Positions 6,452 to 26,364 of a DNA stretch of 38,808 nucleotides are shown here, in pieces. The position numbers and the translations under genes are program-made. The stretch's first letter is position 1. Every line of letters starts with the position of its first letter. Origin of the DNA: Rhodospirillales bacterium. GTDB lineage: Bacteria; Pseudomonadota; Alphaproteobacteria; Rhodospirillales; Casp-alpha2. The notes under the pieces are model-generated. The model had not been told where the DNA came from. It did no database searches and saw only the letters and a program-made list of their open reading frames with translations. The DNA is taken from contig JABJGO010000086.1 in assembly GCA_018662225.1 (NCBI GenBank), positions 1 through 38,808 on the forward strand. Direction: 5' to 3'.

Positions 6452-7729
6452 ATGCAAACAAATTTCTCTGAAACTCAACTGCAAGACCCTTTGATCCGCG
6501 AAGCGGACGATATTTTGCGCCATTGTGTTCACTGCGGATTTTGCACGGCCACTTGCCCGACCTTTGTTGTGTTGGGTGACGAGCTGGATAGTCCGCGTGG
6601 CCGCATTTATCTTATCAAGGACATGCTGGAAGGTGGTGCCACCCCATCTGAGGATGTGGTGAAACACGTGGACCGGTGCCTGTCATGCCTGTCATGCACA
6701 ACAACCTGCCCGTCAGGGGTGGACTATATGCATCTGGTAGACATGGCACGCGCGCGTATTGAGGACAGCTTTGACCGACCCATTCAGGACAAACTGTTCC
6801 GCAGCCTTCTGGCCTTTGTTATCCCACGGCCTGCCATATTCAGGCTGGCGTTGGTGGGTGCGTGGTTTGCCAGGCCATTTCGCAACCTTTTGCCCGGCTC
6901 GCTTGGTGCCATGCTGTCGCTGGCACCGCCCTCTATCAATGGCCCATCGCCTATCGATGGGGCGCAAACGTTCCGGGCGCAAGGCACACGCCGCAAGCGC
7001 GTTGCCCTGATGACAGGTTGTGCGCAACAGGTACTGGCACCGTCCATTAACGAGGCCACGGTGCGGATTCTGACCCGTCATGGCTGTGACGTGGTGGTTG
7101 CCGAAGGTGCGGGGTGTTGCGGGGCGCTGGAACATCATATGGGCAAGGTGGATGGATCACACGCGGCGGCAAAACGTAATATTGAGGCATGGGAACGGGT
7201 CGATGATCTGGACGCCGTGATCATCAATGCATCGGGTTGTGGCACCACGGTTAAAGATTACAGCCACATGTTTAAGGATGATCCGGACTGGGCCGATCGC
7301 GCTAAACGCATTTCGGCCCTGTGCCAGGACGTTACCGAAATTTTGCATGATCTGAGCTTGAACCAACCCGTTCAGAAACCGAACATCACGGTTGCCTATC
7401 ATTCGGCCTGCTCCATGCAGCATGGGCAAAAGATCACCCAAATACCGAAAGATCTGCTGAACCAAGCTGGGTTCCAGGTGCTGTCACCCGCCGAAGGGCA
7501 TTTGTGTTGTGGATCAGCCGGCACCTACAACATGACCCAGCCAGAGCTGGCCGCGACTTTGGGTCGCCGCAAGGCAGGCCATCTTGACGCCACCGGCGCA
7601 GACGTGGTCGCGGCGGGCAATATTGGCTGTCAGATGCAAATTGATCTCTATGGCAATCTTCCCGTCGTTCATACCGTGGAATTGCTGGATTGGGCTACGG
7701 GTGGACCAAAGCCCGCACAACTGGGCTGA
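6452..7729 (+). CDS. glcF: Glycolate oxidase, iron-sulfur subunit GlcF
   Basis: The 425-aa protein has two 4Fe-4S motifs of the CX2CX2CX3CP type: C25-C28-C31-C35 (HCVHCGFCTATCP) and C76-C79-C82-C86 (CLSCLSCTTTCP). Two C-terminal CCG domains follow, with GAGCCGALEHHMG and HLCCGSAGTYN. GlcF passes electrons from the flavin subunits to the quinone pool. The start is three bases after the glcE stop. The last 35 bases overlap the end of the convergent methyltransferase gene, which is real sequence overlap and not a gap. Confidence 0.95.
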   Translation: MQTNFSETQLQDPLIREADDILRHCVHCGFCTATCPTFVVLGDELDSPRGRIYLIKDMLEGGATPSEDVVKHVDRCLSCLSCTTTCPSGVDYMHLVDMARARIEDSFDRPIQDKLFRSLLAFVIPRPAIFRLALVGAWFARPFRNLLPGSLGAMLSLAPPSINGPSPIDGAQTFRAQGTRRKRVALMTGCAQQVLAPSINEATVRILTRHGCDVVVAEGAGCCGALEHHMGKVDGSHAAAKRNIEAWERVDDLDAVIINASGCGTTVKDYSHMFKDDPDWADRAKRISALCQDVTEILHDLSLNQPVQKPNITVAYHSACSMQHGQKITQIPKDLLNQAGFQVLSPAEGHLCCGSAGTYNMTQPELAATLGRRKAGHLDATGADVVAAGNIGCQMQIDLYGNLPVVHTVELLDWATGGPKPAQLG

Positions 7730-8579
7730 AATCCACAGGCTTGTTTGCCTCGCCAGCCGGACGAGCAAGAAACAACGTTGTGTAGATATACCCTGTTTGC
7801 TTCTCGGCGGTGCTATCAATCCCCATGGCAATCTGTTGGTCGATAATACGGTCGGCTTCTTCGGGAGAATGGAACTGGCGGTGCGGTAACGGATCAGGCG
7901 AGACTTGTTCCATCACGTAACCATGCTTCTCAAAAACATCGCTGTACACCGACACATTGGTATAGCGCGGCGGTGCCGTAATCACCCACGGTCTCGAGTC
8001 AGAACCAGCCGCCGCCAAAAGTGCATCAATCACGTGGGGGGCAATGAAAATCGGCACGCCGCTTTCAATGATCAGGGCACCGGAGGCCACAATACGGATC
8101 AGATCGTCCGGCACGGGCGCTTGCATTAAATTGTCATCAAACGCCACATCCAACAGACCCGTGCGCAACCCATAATCAAGCGATGAGCGGGATACGTCCA
8201 ATCCTGCCATGTGACAGGGTTGTCGGGGGTGTTCGGAGAAATACTGCATATCCAATTCAATCACGGACTCGGGCGACATTTGGCGCATGTGGTCGGAATC
8301 ATAGCGCGTCAGCAAATCCTGCACCGCAACGCCGTACAGCAACCCGGCCCCATTGACCCCGAACCCGCAGCCAACATCAAGGATCCAGGGCTCTCCCCCG
8401 CAAAAATGTCCAAAACACCACCGGGCCAGTTGCTGAACATGTTCCGGTGTTCGGTAATCCAACGCACCCAGCGATTGATAGTAGGCACGGGAATCCGGCT
8501 CATCGTACAAGTAGCTCAGGTCCGATATAGGCACGTCATCCGGAGACTTGGGGTCCGATATATGATTATCGTCGTTCAT
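7695..8579 (-). CDS. SAM-dependent class I methyltransferase, substrate unknown
   Basis: A 294-aa protein. Motif I of class I methyltransferases is clear in ILDVGCGFGVNGAGLL (about 66-81), followed by DVSRSSLDYGLRTGLL (about 124-139), where a post-motif acidic region is expected. The N-terminal 40 residues are acidic and include SRAYYQSLGALDYRT. The C-terminal part has VITAPPRYTNVSVYSDVFEKHGY, with an aromatic/Pro-rich block. I do not recognise the subfamily and cannot name the acceptor. It is convergent with glcF and divergent from the TPR gene at 8667, so it is a single-gene unit inside the hydroxy-acid block. It may be unrelated to that metabolism. Confidence 0.78.
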   Translation of the reverse strand: MNDDNHISDPKSPDDVPISDLSYLYDEPDSRAYYQSLGALDYRTPEHVQQLARWCFGHFCGGEPWILDVGCGFGVNGAGLLYGVAVQDLLTRYDSDHMRQMSPESVIELDMQYFSEHPRQPCHMAGLDVSRSSLDYGLRTGLLDVAFDDNLMQAPVPDDLIRIVASGALIIESGVPIFIAPHVIDALLAAAGSDSRPWVITAPPRYTNVSVYSDVFEKHGYVMEQVSPDPLPHRQFHSPEEADRIIDQQIAMGIDSTAEKQTGYIYTTLFLARPAGEANKPVDFSPVVRALVHP

Positions 8580-22932: not shown

Positions 22933-22964
22933 GCGTGGGAAGTTAGATCGAGTAACGCTCTTTC
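22922..22964. terminator. Bulged stem across the convergent gene ends (weak terminator candidate)
   Basis: GAAAG (22922-22926) and AGCGT (22932-22936) can pair with ACGCT (22955-22959) and CTTTC (22960-22964), with a five-base bulge. It spans the stop codons of the DMT exporter and the convergent cNMP/TPR gene. No T run follows, so confidence is low. Confidence 0.25.
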
Positions 22965-24730
22965 TGGCTTTCGTCGACCTCAGGCTCGCGAACGACGTTG
23001 TCGCGCCACCAGTCCGCATCATTTGCATCATTGGAATCATCATCCATCACCACGTCGGCCCAGCGTTCTTTACGCTGTGCTTTGGTATGATACAGTTTTC
23101 GCAGGTCATCCACCCGTATCAGGTTTCGCTGTACAATGTTGGCATTCCGTCTGGCGCCGGTTTTCATATAAACCTCGAACGCTGCACGGAATGCGTCAGT
23201 AGCCGAATCCAGATAGTCCTCACGCGTGGTCAATTTACCCAACAGGAACAATGCCGATCCCAGAGTATTCTGGGTTGAGGCCCATTGATGAGGCATGCGA
23301 TGACGGCGACGAACCGTCAAAGCATTGCGGCAGGCGGTGACGGCTTTTTCCAAAATTCTGGGTTCACGCCGATGTTCGCCCAGCACCTGGGCCGTCAATG
23401 CGTAGTTATTCATCACATCGGCCCAACGGTCCGGCGTGTCGAAGCGGGTATAGACCTGCATGGCGGCACAGTATGCCGTAATGGATGATTTGAGCATGTC
23501 GGTATCAGCCAGCGCATCGGCCAAATCCAGTTTGTACAGCGACAGGCCAAACTTGTTCTGCGCGATAGCCCATTCGCGCGGCAGGTGACGGCGCGATATA
23601 GCCTTGGTGGCGGCCTCGAAAGCATCTGCGGCTTGCCGCATCGCATCATTGTCGTGATTACGTTCGGCGGCCAAATAAAGGATACTACCCAGTTGCTTGT
23701 GCGTCATACCCCACAGCATGGCATGATCTTCTTCAGAGATAAGTTCAATGGCGCGTTTATAAAGATCGGTAGAAAACGTGAGCAGTTCGGCCTCATCCAG
23801 ACGAAGGCAAACCATCGATACCGCGTTCGCCAGACATACCAACAGGTTGGCCCGGTCCTCTTGTGACATGTCGCGTGGTGGACGTTGCGCTGGCGGCGCA
23901 CCTTCCTCGATGGCGGCTTCCAGATTGGCCTGAACCACGTTGGTCTTGTCCGTTGTGTTGGTTACCACACCCGCCAATACCACCGTATTCAGGAGCGCAA
24001 TCCATGAATCATCAAGATTGATGGGCAAGGGAAGTTCATTATAGCCGTTGAAGGAGCCCGGCATATCTTCGTCATGCGGAATAGCTGAAACCAGATGCAA
24101 ATTGGCGGTCTCACTATTCGATGACATGACACCCCAGATCAACAGATCGCCACTGGATGCATGCAGCAACTGACGGCCCTCACCAATGCAGGCCCCAATA
24201 TTGGCCTTGGCGATCGTTTTCTGCGCAAACGTACCACTGCGACTGAGCATTTTAACCCGAATACCGTCACATTGTCCCAACACCGTAGCCACAGAGCGCG
24301 TAAAGGCCGGTCCACTAGGGCCGTGGAAAGGTACGATACGAACCTCAATAAAGCTGGATTTGTTGCCAACGAAGTTGAGGATACGATCAAGCCAACCCTG
24401 ACCGAGTGGCGGCTTTACGGGAACTGCTGGCACTGCGGGCCCATGAACATTTACGGCGGGTAACATCGGGCTCCCGGGCGCATCCTGATCAACCAATTCC
24501 ACGGTGACCTTGCCGACAGCTGTGGCACTTAGTGTGCGTAGGCCGCCATTCATAACGCCTACTTCACCAAAACGATCCGATTTCTCAAGCACTTCGATTT
24601 CAACATTGCCATGCGCCGTATCCTTTGAAAGGGCCACCCTGCCTTTCAATATGACATATCCATCACGACCGGGATCACCTTCATGGAAGATGATCTCACC
24701 GTCTTCAAAAGATTTCTTGTTTCGCGCCAC
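22943..24730 (-). CDS. Cyclic-nucleotide-binding-domain plus TPR protein without DNA-binding domain
   Basis: A 595-aa protein starting with GTG at 24730, GGAG six bases upstream. Residues about 5-85 are a CAP/CRP-like cNMP domain (EDGEIIFHEGDPGRDGYVIL, FGEVGVMNGGLRTLSATAVG). A Pro-rich linker (about 88-110) leads to a middle domain (about 125-260) with IEVRIVPFHGPSGPAFTRSV and HASSGDLLIWGVMSSNSETA that I do not recognise securely; a TolB-like fold is a guess. The C-terminal half has repeated TPR-like units each carrying a WA..N pattern: REWAIAQNKFGLSLYKL, DRWADVMNNYALTAQVLG and HQWASTQNTLGSALFLLG. No HTH is present, so it is not a CRP-type transcription factor; ligand control of a protein-protein scaffold is more likely. 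The tail is charged. Confidence 0.8.
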   Translation of the reverse strand: MARNKKSFEDGEIIFHEGDPGRDGYVILKGRVALSKDTAHGNVEIEVLEKSDRFGEVGVMNGGLRTLSATAVGKVTVELVDQDAPGSPMLPAVNVHGPAVPAVPVKPPLGQGWLDRILNFVGNKSSFIEVRIVPFHGPSGPAFTRSVATVLGQCDGIRVKMLSRSGTFAQKTIAKANIGACIGEGRQLLHASSGDLLIWGVMSSNSETANLHLVSAIPHDEDMPGSFNGYNELPLPINLDDSWIALLNTVVLAGVVTNTTDKTNVVQANLEAAIEEGAPPAQRPPRDMSQEDRANLLVCLANAVSMVCLRLDEAELLTFSTDLYKRAIELISEEDHAMLWGMTHKQLGSILYLAAERNHDNDAMRQAADAFEAATKAISRRHLPREWAIAQNKFGLSLYKLDLADALADTDMLKSSITAYCAAMQVYTRFDTPDRWADVMNNYALTAQVLGEHRREPRILEKAVTACRNALTVRRRHRMPHQWASTQNTLGSALFLLGKLTTREDYLDSATDAFRAAFEVYMKTGARRNANIVQRNLIRVDDLRKLYHTKAQRKERWADVVMDDDSNDANDADWWRDNVVREPEVDESQKERYSI

Positions 24731-24768
24731 GTAATGCTCCGCCGCACAGAGCCGAATAAGCTCCGCAC

Positions 24769-24793
24769 AAAGTTAACCTGTATGGTTAACTTT
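24769..24793. repeat. Perfect 10-bp inverted repeat with 5-base loop upstream of the cNMP/TPR gene
   Basis: AAAGTTAACC (24769-24778) and GGTTAACTTT (24784-24793) are exact reverse complements around TGTAT. It lies 39 bases upstream of the GTG start of the cNMP/TPR gene and 54 bases past the end of the broken glycosyltransferase gene, both on the minus strand. The AT-rich stem lacks a T run outside the stem, so an operator is more likely than a terminator. Confidence 0.6.
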
Positions 24794-24846: not shown

Positions 24847-26364
24847 TTACGAGATGGCACGCTCATACAAAGCATCATGAAGCGCCGAAAATACTGAATC
24901 CCAATTGCCCGGTGTGACCTGCCTGAATAACCGCATAGACGGATACCACACGGACGCTGGTTGGTCATCATCCGCTGAATGCCAGCGCCAATCAGATGTG
25001 TAGGGCAATAAAACCCAGGTTTCCTTGCCCAACGCCCCCGCCACGTGTGCCGTGGCGGAATCCACACATATAATCAGGTCCAACTACTCAATTGCCGCCG
25101 CTAGATCGGCCAGATCAGTCAATCGCGACCCCACATCGGACAACAATGCATCGCACGCCTCGGCCTCACGGTCTGCTGCCCGCTCCCCAGTTTGCAAACT
25201 GAAGGCTGTCACGCCCGGAATGGCTAAAACCTCGATCAGCCTGCTCAACGGACATGAACGGTCCACCGCGCCTTTCGATGGTACCCCCGGTGACCAGCAC
25301 AAGCCGGTCCGCATTTGTCGCCCATGCGACGGCGGCAGTTGAATCGTGCTCTGTTCTGGTGGCTTGAGGTAAGGCACCGTGCTGGCAAGGGTATCATCAC
25401 CCGGTGCCAGGACGTGCGGCAAGCTCATGATCGGGATCTGTACGTCGTAAGGCGGCAGCTGGCCACCCAACATCACCACCTTGTCCACGCCCGGCATGGC
25501 AGCGATTAACCTTGATACCTTGGCGTGGCACTCAACCACGATGTTGGCTTTACGCTCTTTCACCAACGGGATGTAGCGAGCGAACTGTAAAAGATCACCC
25601 AGGCCGCCTTCCTGACGGATTAGAATGGTCTTGCCATCCAGCGCAGAGCCATCCCAGCGGGGTTTTTCGGAATCATCGACAGGAGGCACCTGCGGCAGAC
25701 GGTGCCGCCATTCGAACTCCTCGAACCCTTTGGTCAATTCTCCCTTCATCATCAGGGTCGTGCCCAGATCCATGTGGCAAGCAGCATAGTCATTGCGTAG
25801 TGTCAGAGCGCTTTCAAAACAGGTCTGCGCCTTCTCACTGTCACCGGCGTCACGCAGGGCCAGGCCCAGATTATAAACAGCTTCGGGTGATTTCGGGGCC
25901 ATACGAACCGCCTTGGACAACGATACAATTGCCTGATTGAAATGGCTCATGACCCGTAGCGTATTGCCCAGATTGGAAAGCACACCAGCGTCATTGGGTT
26001 TCAACACCAAAGCCCGGCGATAACACGTGATTGCGGCAGCCAGTTTGCCTTGCGCACGCAAACACACACCCAAATTGTTGTATATGTCCGCATTCGCAGG
26101 ATTCAGGTTCAGCGCACGGGAGTACGCCGATACAGCTTGATCAAATTCACCCCGACGGTGCAGATCAATGGCCAGAGCGAAGACCCGTGCGGCTTCCCGA
26201 TCACGTAACGAAGGCCCGCTTTCCGGACGTTCACTTAAGGGCGTTTCTGAGGATGGATCCGCCGGTGGCGTTTCTGCGTCCGTTGCCCCAGCGACAGTAG
26301 CTGTCACAGTGGGCTTCCTGATCACAGGTTTTCTAGGCGAAACAATTTTTGGTTTTCGAGCCAC
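24847..26364 (-). pseudogene. TPR-containing family 9-like glycosyltransferase interrupted by an in-frame TAG
   Basis: The first open segment (26364 to 25084, 426 aa from a GTG) has a basic Pro-rich start, TPR units from about residue 60 to 235 (YSRALNLNPANADIYNNLGV, CYRRALVLKPNDAGVLSNLG) and the front of a GT9/ADP-heptose-transferase-like domain (WDGSALDGKTILIRQEGGLG). It stops at TAG 25084-25086. The very next codon in the same frame continues as LDLIICVDSATAHVAGALGK and ends with ETWVLLPYTSDWRWHSADDD, the conserved nucleotide-sugar-binding C-terminus of this family, up to TAA at 24847. The joined protein would be about 505 residues, the normal size of such proteins. One CAG-to-TAG change, where relatives often have Gln or similar, explains the break. 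It may be a nonsense mutation, a strain variant or a sequencing error. Confidence 0.85.

Follow-up and report, generated by a model that had tools for sequence, protein, structure and literature searches.

Locus and nucleotide-binding domain

The window analysed here is a stretch of 38,808 nucleotides from a Rhodospirillales bacterium. Its minus strand carries, in this order, genes for RecX, an ArsC-like reductase (assigned by eye), a TPR protein whose glycosyltransferase part is weakly supported (25084-26364; Pfam and ORF clustering) and a 595-residue protein in which a cyclic-nucleotide-binding (CNB) domain precedes an anticodon-binding-like middle domain and a TPR array (22943-24730). The latter frame starts with GTG, has a likely ribosome-binding site, GGAG (24737-24740, same strand), six bases upstream, and shares the context before the start, CGGAGCAT, with its relatives L005 and L006. 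The genome holds one full-length copy, three other matches spanning the CNB part only, and the protein is conserved over its full length in two Rhodospirillales MAGs (68% identity in L005, 48% in L006). On these sequence grounds, that is because of the single full-length copy and the length-wide conservation, the frame is a real gene.

Upstream of the start lies a perfect 19-bp inverted repeat, GTTAACC-N5-GGTTAAC (24772-24790, strand not assigned), a possible operator; the L005 equivalent is ATTAACC-N5-GGTTAAT, in which both outer bases have changed together. The whole genome has a single occurrence of the 17-bp core, as it has of a backward-read control pattern, so that one site is near chance, and a regulon was rejected.

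The CNB domain (residues 6-81; 24488-24715, minus strand) matched PF00027 with 53.1 bits against a curated cut-off of 27.5 (E 3.1e-14), and its sequence matches in the PDB were PKA regulatory subunits, CRP/FNR proteins and PKG. Alignment and published contacts located its phosphate-binding cassette at residues 54-70 (FGEVGVMNGGLRTLSAT; 24521-24571, minus strand). The CRP/FNR protein of solved structure 3h3u, which we take to be M. tuberculosis CRP, has FGELSIFDPGPRTSSAT at the place of the Arg region and shares the RT.SAT run. By sequence comparison, G55, E56, R65 and T66 occupy the positions of ligand contacts in cAMP and cGMP receptors; the contacts named for S. meliloti Clr include G85, E86, R95 and S96 (PMC10127613), and those named for PfPKG include E484, R493 and T494 (PMC12422582). 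The interval of nine residues from E56 to R65 is the same as between E86 and R95 of Clr and, in PfPKG, between E484 and R493, which T494 follows. An earlier note on this DNA had recognised the FGEVG of the pocket, and residues 55-56 are its GE; its suggestion that an Arg region reading LRTLSATA alters ligand binding did not hold up, the arginine not being displaced, since R65 and T66 are in place at the Clr and PfPKG spacing and 3h3u is alike.

GE and R are kept in 25 of the 32 aligned rows that have the cassette segment. The other seven are L021, L024, L026, L032, L068, L069 and L051, the last being an upstream open frame without a recognisable CNB domain. The contact residues GE..RT are all present in the window protein and in L005, L006, L011, L013 and L019. 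The domain has the pocket residues for a cyclic nucleotide, and may bind one.

A capping C-helix is usual in the PF00027 family and absent in some members; in CRP it joins the dimer. By hand count, 17 of the 32 rows, L014, L015 and L025 for example, carry a helix after the barrel, of the type MGKLVERLRxANERLA. In the alignment of the window protein no capping helix follows the barrel over residues 83-112 (24395-24484, minus strand), where we find the Pro-rich linker that the earlier note had placed after the nucleotide-binding module; in L005, L011 and L013, too, a linker rich in proline or otherwise of low complexity stands where others have the helix. The C-helix is described as capping the ligand in CNB domains (PMC12422582), and because a linker replaces it in the window's genus, affinity or coupling may be poor. 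If ligand binding is altered, the missing helix would be a likelier cause than the Arg region.

The linker runs into a short hydrophobic segment, GWLDRILNFVG (residues 112-122; 24365-24397, minus strand), and CNB-bearing relatives have similar short segments before the middle domain. Its amphipathicity is unexceptional by hydrophobic moment, being reached by a median of 24% of segments drawn at random from the same proteins (n=52), and membrane anchoring through this segment was rejected on that test. Nowhere does the window protein contain a hydrophobic stretch long enough for a membrane segment, the top KD19 value, 1.48, lying within the TPRs.

Middle domain, TPR array and related cyclases

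The middle domain (residues 122-260; 23951-24367, minus strand) was delimited by alignment, model and profile comparison, and has the order b-a-b-a-b-b-b-a with a DLLIWG motif. Across an alignment of 48 members, numbered along a 161-residue stretch, L78, D84, W88, G89, L122 and P125 are near-invariant. The earlier note could not assign this domain, which stands as far as families go: among the 48 homologues Pfam gave no credible match (nine families, one member each, best E 0.022). A PDB profile search found no sequence relative of the domain, returning two designed proteins only (best E 0.27). Its fold, on the other hand, can be assigned from a predicted model to an anticodon-binding-like group, as follows.

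An AlphaFold2 model of the whole protein, from three sequences, had a mean pLDDT of 66.5, with residues 1-124, the poorly modelled CNB domain among them, below 50. Because Foldseek with the whole model gave mainly TPR and other helical-repeat proteins, the middle domain was folded alone (pLDDT 80.8, pTM 0.79; two of five models were low, at 36.7 and 35.9). No Foldseek match of the lone domain reached E 0.001. The best were GNA1162 (2.3e-3) and PelBC (4.6e-3), with TolB sixth (1.4e-2); the unrelated entries between, at ranks 3 to 5, were ribosome-assembly factors and a ubiquitin-activating enzyme, and they were weighed less because a finer aligner preferred FlgT and synthetases. That aligner gave the middle-domain model Z scores of 9.3 with FlgT (118 aligned, 3.8 A), 9.1 with HisRS (99, 2.6 A), 8.2 with TolB (109, 3.4 A) and 7.8 with PelC (99, 3.0 A), and also ranked glycyl- and prolyl-tRNA synthetases and the polymerase gamma accessory subunit, nearly all of the matches listed sharing the anticodon-binding-like fold. 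The domain is predicted to have this fold, as in FlgT, TolB, PelC and HisRS; the Z scores are moderate, and the agreement within the list is what persuades.

Structure prediction and fold search of the middle domain, the check set beforehand, thus gave neither an HTH fold nor an enzyme fold. No HTH family matched the window protein up to E 1 in Pfam or NCBIfam, where the models for NtcA (0.035) and CRP (0.13) match over the nucleotide-binding part only, and the single HTH match among the 48 homologues (HTH_23, E 0.079) is at chance level. An HTH or an enzyme in this domain is unsupported by Pfam, NCBIfam, the PDB profile search, the 48 homologues and the fold comparison alike.

The TPR array (residues 260-552; 23075-23953, minus strand) has 12 helices in the model, and its best structural matches are the TPR arrays of LGN/Pins (Z 23.5, 291 residues, 4.9 A, from the predicted model). 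The later repeats step by about 47 residues and WA..(Q/M)N motifs stand at residues 387, 436 and 483, in agreement with the long array of repeated WA..N motifs originally described. Pfam sees the repeats weakly (TPR-S 0.0019 and TPR_12 0.07, both below cut-off). Plasmid-borne matches came to 18 records, mostly annotated as TPR or CHAT, none of which covers 80% of the window protein. An acidic, Trp-containing tail (residues 553-595; 22946-23074, minus strand), modelled with low confidence, ends the protein. The overall order of CNB domain, Pro-rich linker, middle domain and TPR array without an HTH was confirmed with Pfam and models.

The genome of the window has 11 class III cyclase domains over the cut-off. 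Three of its proteins (L119, L120 and L121) run from a cyclase through a TolB-N-like domain (KPSIAVLPF...GVRYVVEGSVRK) to TPRs, an order confirmed by family scans for L120, whose TolB-N-like stretch matches TolB TIGR02800 (E 8.9e-6), FlgO (3.9e-4) and HilA/CadC models. Compared by hhalign with 31 cyclase TolB-N-like domains, a narrow middle-domain alignment gave 16.7% (E 1.5e-3; 0 of 300 shuffles as high), which alone was unconvincing because the cyclase domain's score of 24.3 was closely followed by that of the top family among 27 unrelated neighbour families, 23.1. With 19 wider relatives added, the comparison gave 59.3% (E 9.1e-5; 0 of 397 shuffles), and the best unrelated family scored 22.0 against 30.6. 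Remote homology of the middle domain to the cyclase TolB-N-like domain is, on these profiles, likely but not proven. Direct sequence homology to genuine TolB was not seen: hhalign against TolB N-termini gave 0.1% (four TolB sequences of relatives only), and TolB_N was not among the Pfam hits of the 48 members. The link to TolB itself would be one of fold only, as judged from the models.

Distribution, N-terminal forms and neighbouring genes

Of the 100 genomes in the relatives set, which includes the window's own, 85 have the middle domain, as do 20 of 289 genomes across the class and 8 of 299 in the phylum, where four of the eight lie outside the class; in the window's genus each of the two genomes has one match. 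The domain comes with three kinds of N-terminus: one with a CNB domain, one consisting of a short stretch only, and one with a hydrophobic helix. The CNB domain also occurs in deeper relatives (L094, L095, L100 and L102 by Pfam; L096, L101, L103 and L104 by eye). The short form is about 470 residues long, and one example, L043, has no Pfam match at 0.01. All six proteins L154-L159, from four genomes, have the hydrophobic helix, with KD19 values of 1.87-2.78. In these six, from outside the class, the middle domain comes next and is followed by long TPR arrays with WA..QNNLG, and one contig (G498:C143) has three copies. Frame lengths, which are a proxy only, were typed from relatives-set matches with E up to 1e-20: a frame of 560-720 residues occurs in 64 of 100 genomes, and 39 of 100 also hold a shorter frame. 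Because the middle and TPR parts are found both with and without the CNB domain, and also behind a hydrophobic helix, that domain behaves like an added input to them. By eye, the long N-termini of L050 and L051, two candidates for fusions, look like wrong-frame sequence, and both were dropped.

Class III cyclase domains were found in 60 of the 61 genomes searched. No homologue with an established function was found in the searches made. A large protein of the window's own genome, L004 (958-3234 on G000:C35), seems by eye to combine ABC-ATPase-like sequence, a CNB domain and a possible GGDEF-like end, which would be another use of a CNB domain outside CRP. At two loci (L042 4303-6699 and L046 597-2915) a convergent gene of about 800 codons, of one cluster, lies beside a short CNB-free paralogue, and the L042 copy was scanned as a sulfate permease-STAS protein with a C-terminal CNB domain.

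Synteny was read from ORF clustering in the window and 20 further loci (L059-L078), one per genome. The clustering placed a relative of the TPR-glycosyltransferase-like gene in 15 of the 21 loci; by hand-reading it is always upstream and on the same strand, eight times adjacent and seven times with one ORF between. It accompanies 12 of the 18 loci with the CNB domain and all three without it (L075, L077 and L078), and none of the 20 loci of another set (L039-L058, short or TPR-only forms), whose stretches are about half as long. At L068 the middle-TPR gene is 6601-8532, the automatic pick there having been an antisense frame. In L075, L077 and L078 a middle-TPR frame without the CNB domain stands beside the same neighbour, a case of a sensor lost or gained at one locus; the protein family can therefore do without the domain.

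The glycosyltransferase part of the neighbour is weakly matched, GT9 reaching 20.7 bits against a cut-off of 22 (in L062) and heptosyltransferase III falling far below its cut-off. In the window this gene has an in-frame stop (25084-25086) about 78 codons before the end kept in L062, and the same frame stays open to 24847; the stop would be either a real nonsense change or a sequence error. FlmG of Caulobacter is described as a flagellin glycosyltransferase with a TPR plus GT-B plan (PMC7591256), and its likeness to the neighbour is one of plan alone. Four of the 21 loci (L065, L066, L068 and L077) have a PagL-cluster gene on the opposite strand between the TPR-glycosyltransferase-like and middle-TPR genes, its identity (lipid A deacylase) resting on a scan of the L065 copy. 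No cyclase was found by Pfam among the nine window neighbours scanned.

Possible function and known systems

A nucleotide module, a middle domain that shows neither a DNA-binding nor an enzyme signature, and TPRs in one chain would most naturally be read, as the earlier note proposed, as a ligand-controlled scaffold. We give about an even chance to a specific form of it, in which the window protein is a cytoplasmic, cyclic-nucleotide-responsive TPR adaptor. The starting points are the architecture, its conservation, the pocket residues, the lack of a detectable HTH and the predicted fold; from these we infer a ligand, its coupling, an oligomer and a partner. With the pocket residues present, the CNB domain would bind cAMP or cGMP from the cell's class III cyclases, and the ligand would alter the packing of the barrel, on its flexible linker in the window's genus, against the middle domain. 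The middle domain would be a platform presenting the TPR superhelix and, judging from its fold relatives, could self-associate. The superhelix would hold a partner protein, and the ligand would change what it holds. Synteny suggests the TPR-glycosyltransferase-like neighbour, or its substrate, as the first candidate partner, or may reflect descent as a gene block without interaction.

The chief alternative, unlikely but worth serious attention, is a constitutive scaffold in which the middle and TPR parts work ligand-free and the CNB domain is a structural or degenerating remnant. In its favour are L075, L077 and L078, with the same neighbour and no CNB domain, and the commonness of frames too short for that domain (both lengths in 39 of 100 genomes, on length only); the loss of GE or R in seven of 32 rows and the missing C-helix in the window's genus point the same way. 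A remnant would not, however, be expected to keep GE..RT, as the window protein, L005, L006, L011, L013 and L019 do, and by the length proxy 64 of 100 genomes retain the frame of 560-720 residues.

TolB works in the envelope, and so, by their entry titles, do the fold relatives FlgT, PelC and GNA1162. Counting TolB with them, one might suppose that middle domains assemble on the inner membrane as a ring or patch from which the TPRs recruit envelope or surface-glycan enzymes. The hydrophobic helix before the middle domain in six of six distant relatives (L154-L159), the short hydrophobic segment at that place in the window protein, and the neighbours (the TPR-glycosyltransferase-like gene, and the PagL-cluster gene in 4 of 21 loci) would fit. 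We nevertheless consider this doubtful for the window protein: its CNB domain implies the cytoplasm, its top KD19 of 1.48 falls short of a membrane segment, and the amphipathicity of the short segment is matched by a median of 24% of random ones.

A more elaborate possibility, and a rather improbable one, is a complex of writer and reader in which class III cyclases and CNB proteins co-assemble through homologous TolB-N-like platforms and TPRs, so that the nucleotide is made and read within one complex; if true, it would give bacteria an equivalent of anchored, local cyclic-nucleotide signalling. A search across the order with the TolB-N-like domain of L120 gave matches in 18 of 60 genomes, five of the matches being in the window's own genome, and this restricted occurrence counts against a general pairing. 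A transcription regulator of the CRP/FNR kind with its HTH lost or replaced is very improbable: the CNB domain is of CRP/PKA type and L015 matches PRK11753 over residues 7-117, C-helix included (E 6.6e-10), which speaks for such an origin, but searches up to E 1 gave no HTH family for the window protein, its modelled middle domain is unlike an HTH and the 48 homologues gave a lone chance-level HTH_23 match.

Should the adaptor reading be true, a cyclic-nucleotide output would act elsewhere than at DNA, through a long-form frame present, by the length proxy, in 64 of 100 genomes. The middle domain, for which the Pfam copy searched gave no credible match and which is likely linked to the cyclase TolB-N-like domain, offers a testable family. 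No description of the same architecture or function was found among the listed titles and abstract openings in the open-access literature searched. On sequence evidence, the protein would thus combine known modules in an arrangement found undescribed with a domain that lacks a credible Pfam match and is common in the relatives set.

HilA/CadC-type regulators carry a winged HTH. Their models match the cyclase L120 across its TolB-N-like and TPR part, the same plan behind another N-terminal module, and NCBIfam gave no match of these models to the window protein. The most prevalent bacterial cAMP and cGMP receptors are described as Crp-Fnr transcription factors (PMC10127613). Such factors, Clr of S. 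meliloti among them, share with the window protein the CNB domain and the contact positions G, E, R and S/T, whereas the window protein has no HTH match and no C-helix and is unrelated to them in its C-terminal two thirds. With FlgT, the N-terminal domain of TolB, PelC and GNA1162, all envelope proteins, it has in common the fold predicted for its middle domain. CHAT- and caspase-associated TPR proteins have related repeats, but the window protein has no peptidase domain. Pycsar effectors join a CNB domain to a TIR or transmembrane part, and the CNB domain and C-helix of L015 (residues 8-121) match PycTIR (E 4.6e-9) and a TIR effector model (1.2e-11); the window protein, by contrast, has no TIR in Pfam and no segment of transmembrane length, PADLOC gave no family match for it or for L005, and a Pycsar-like role in anti-phage defence was rejected on these grounds.

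The TolB-N-like class III cyclases L119, L120 and L121 have the same order of parts, a cyclic-nucleotide module followed by a TolB-N-like domain and TPRs. No BLAST-level similarity to the window protein was seen, and the cyclase TPRs match classic Pfam repeats whereas those of the window protein are longer and carry WA..(Q/M)N. In such a scheme the cyclases would make the nucleotide, and the window protein would read it.
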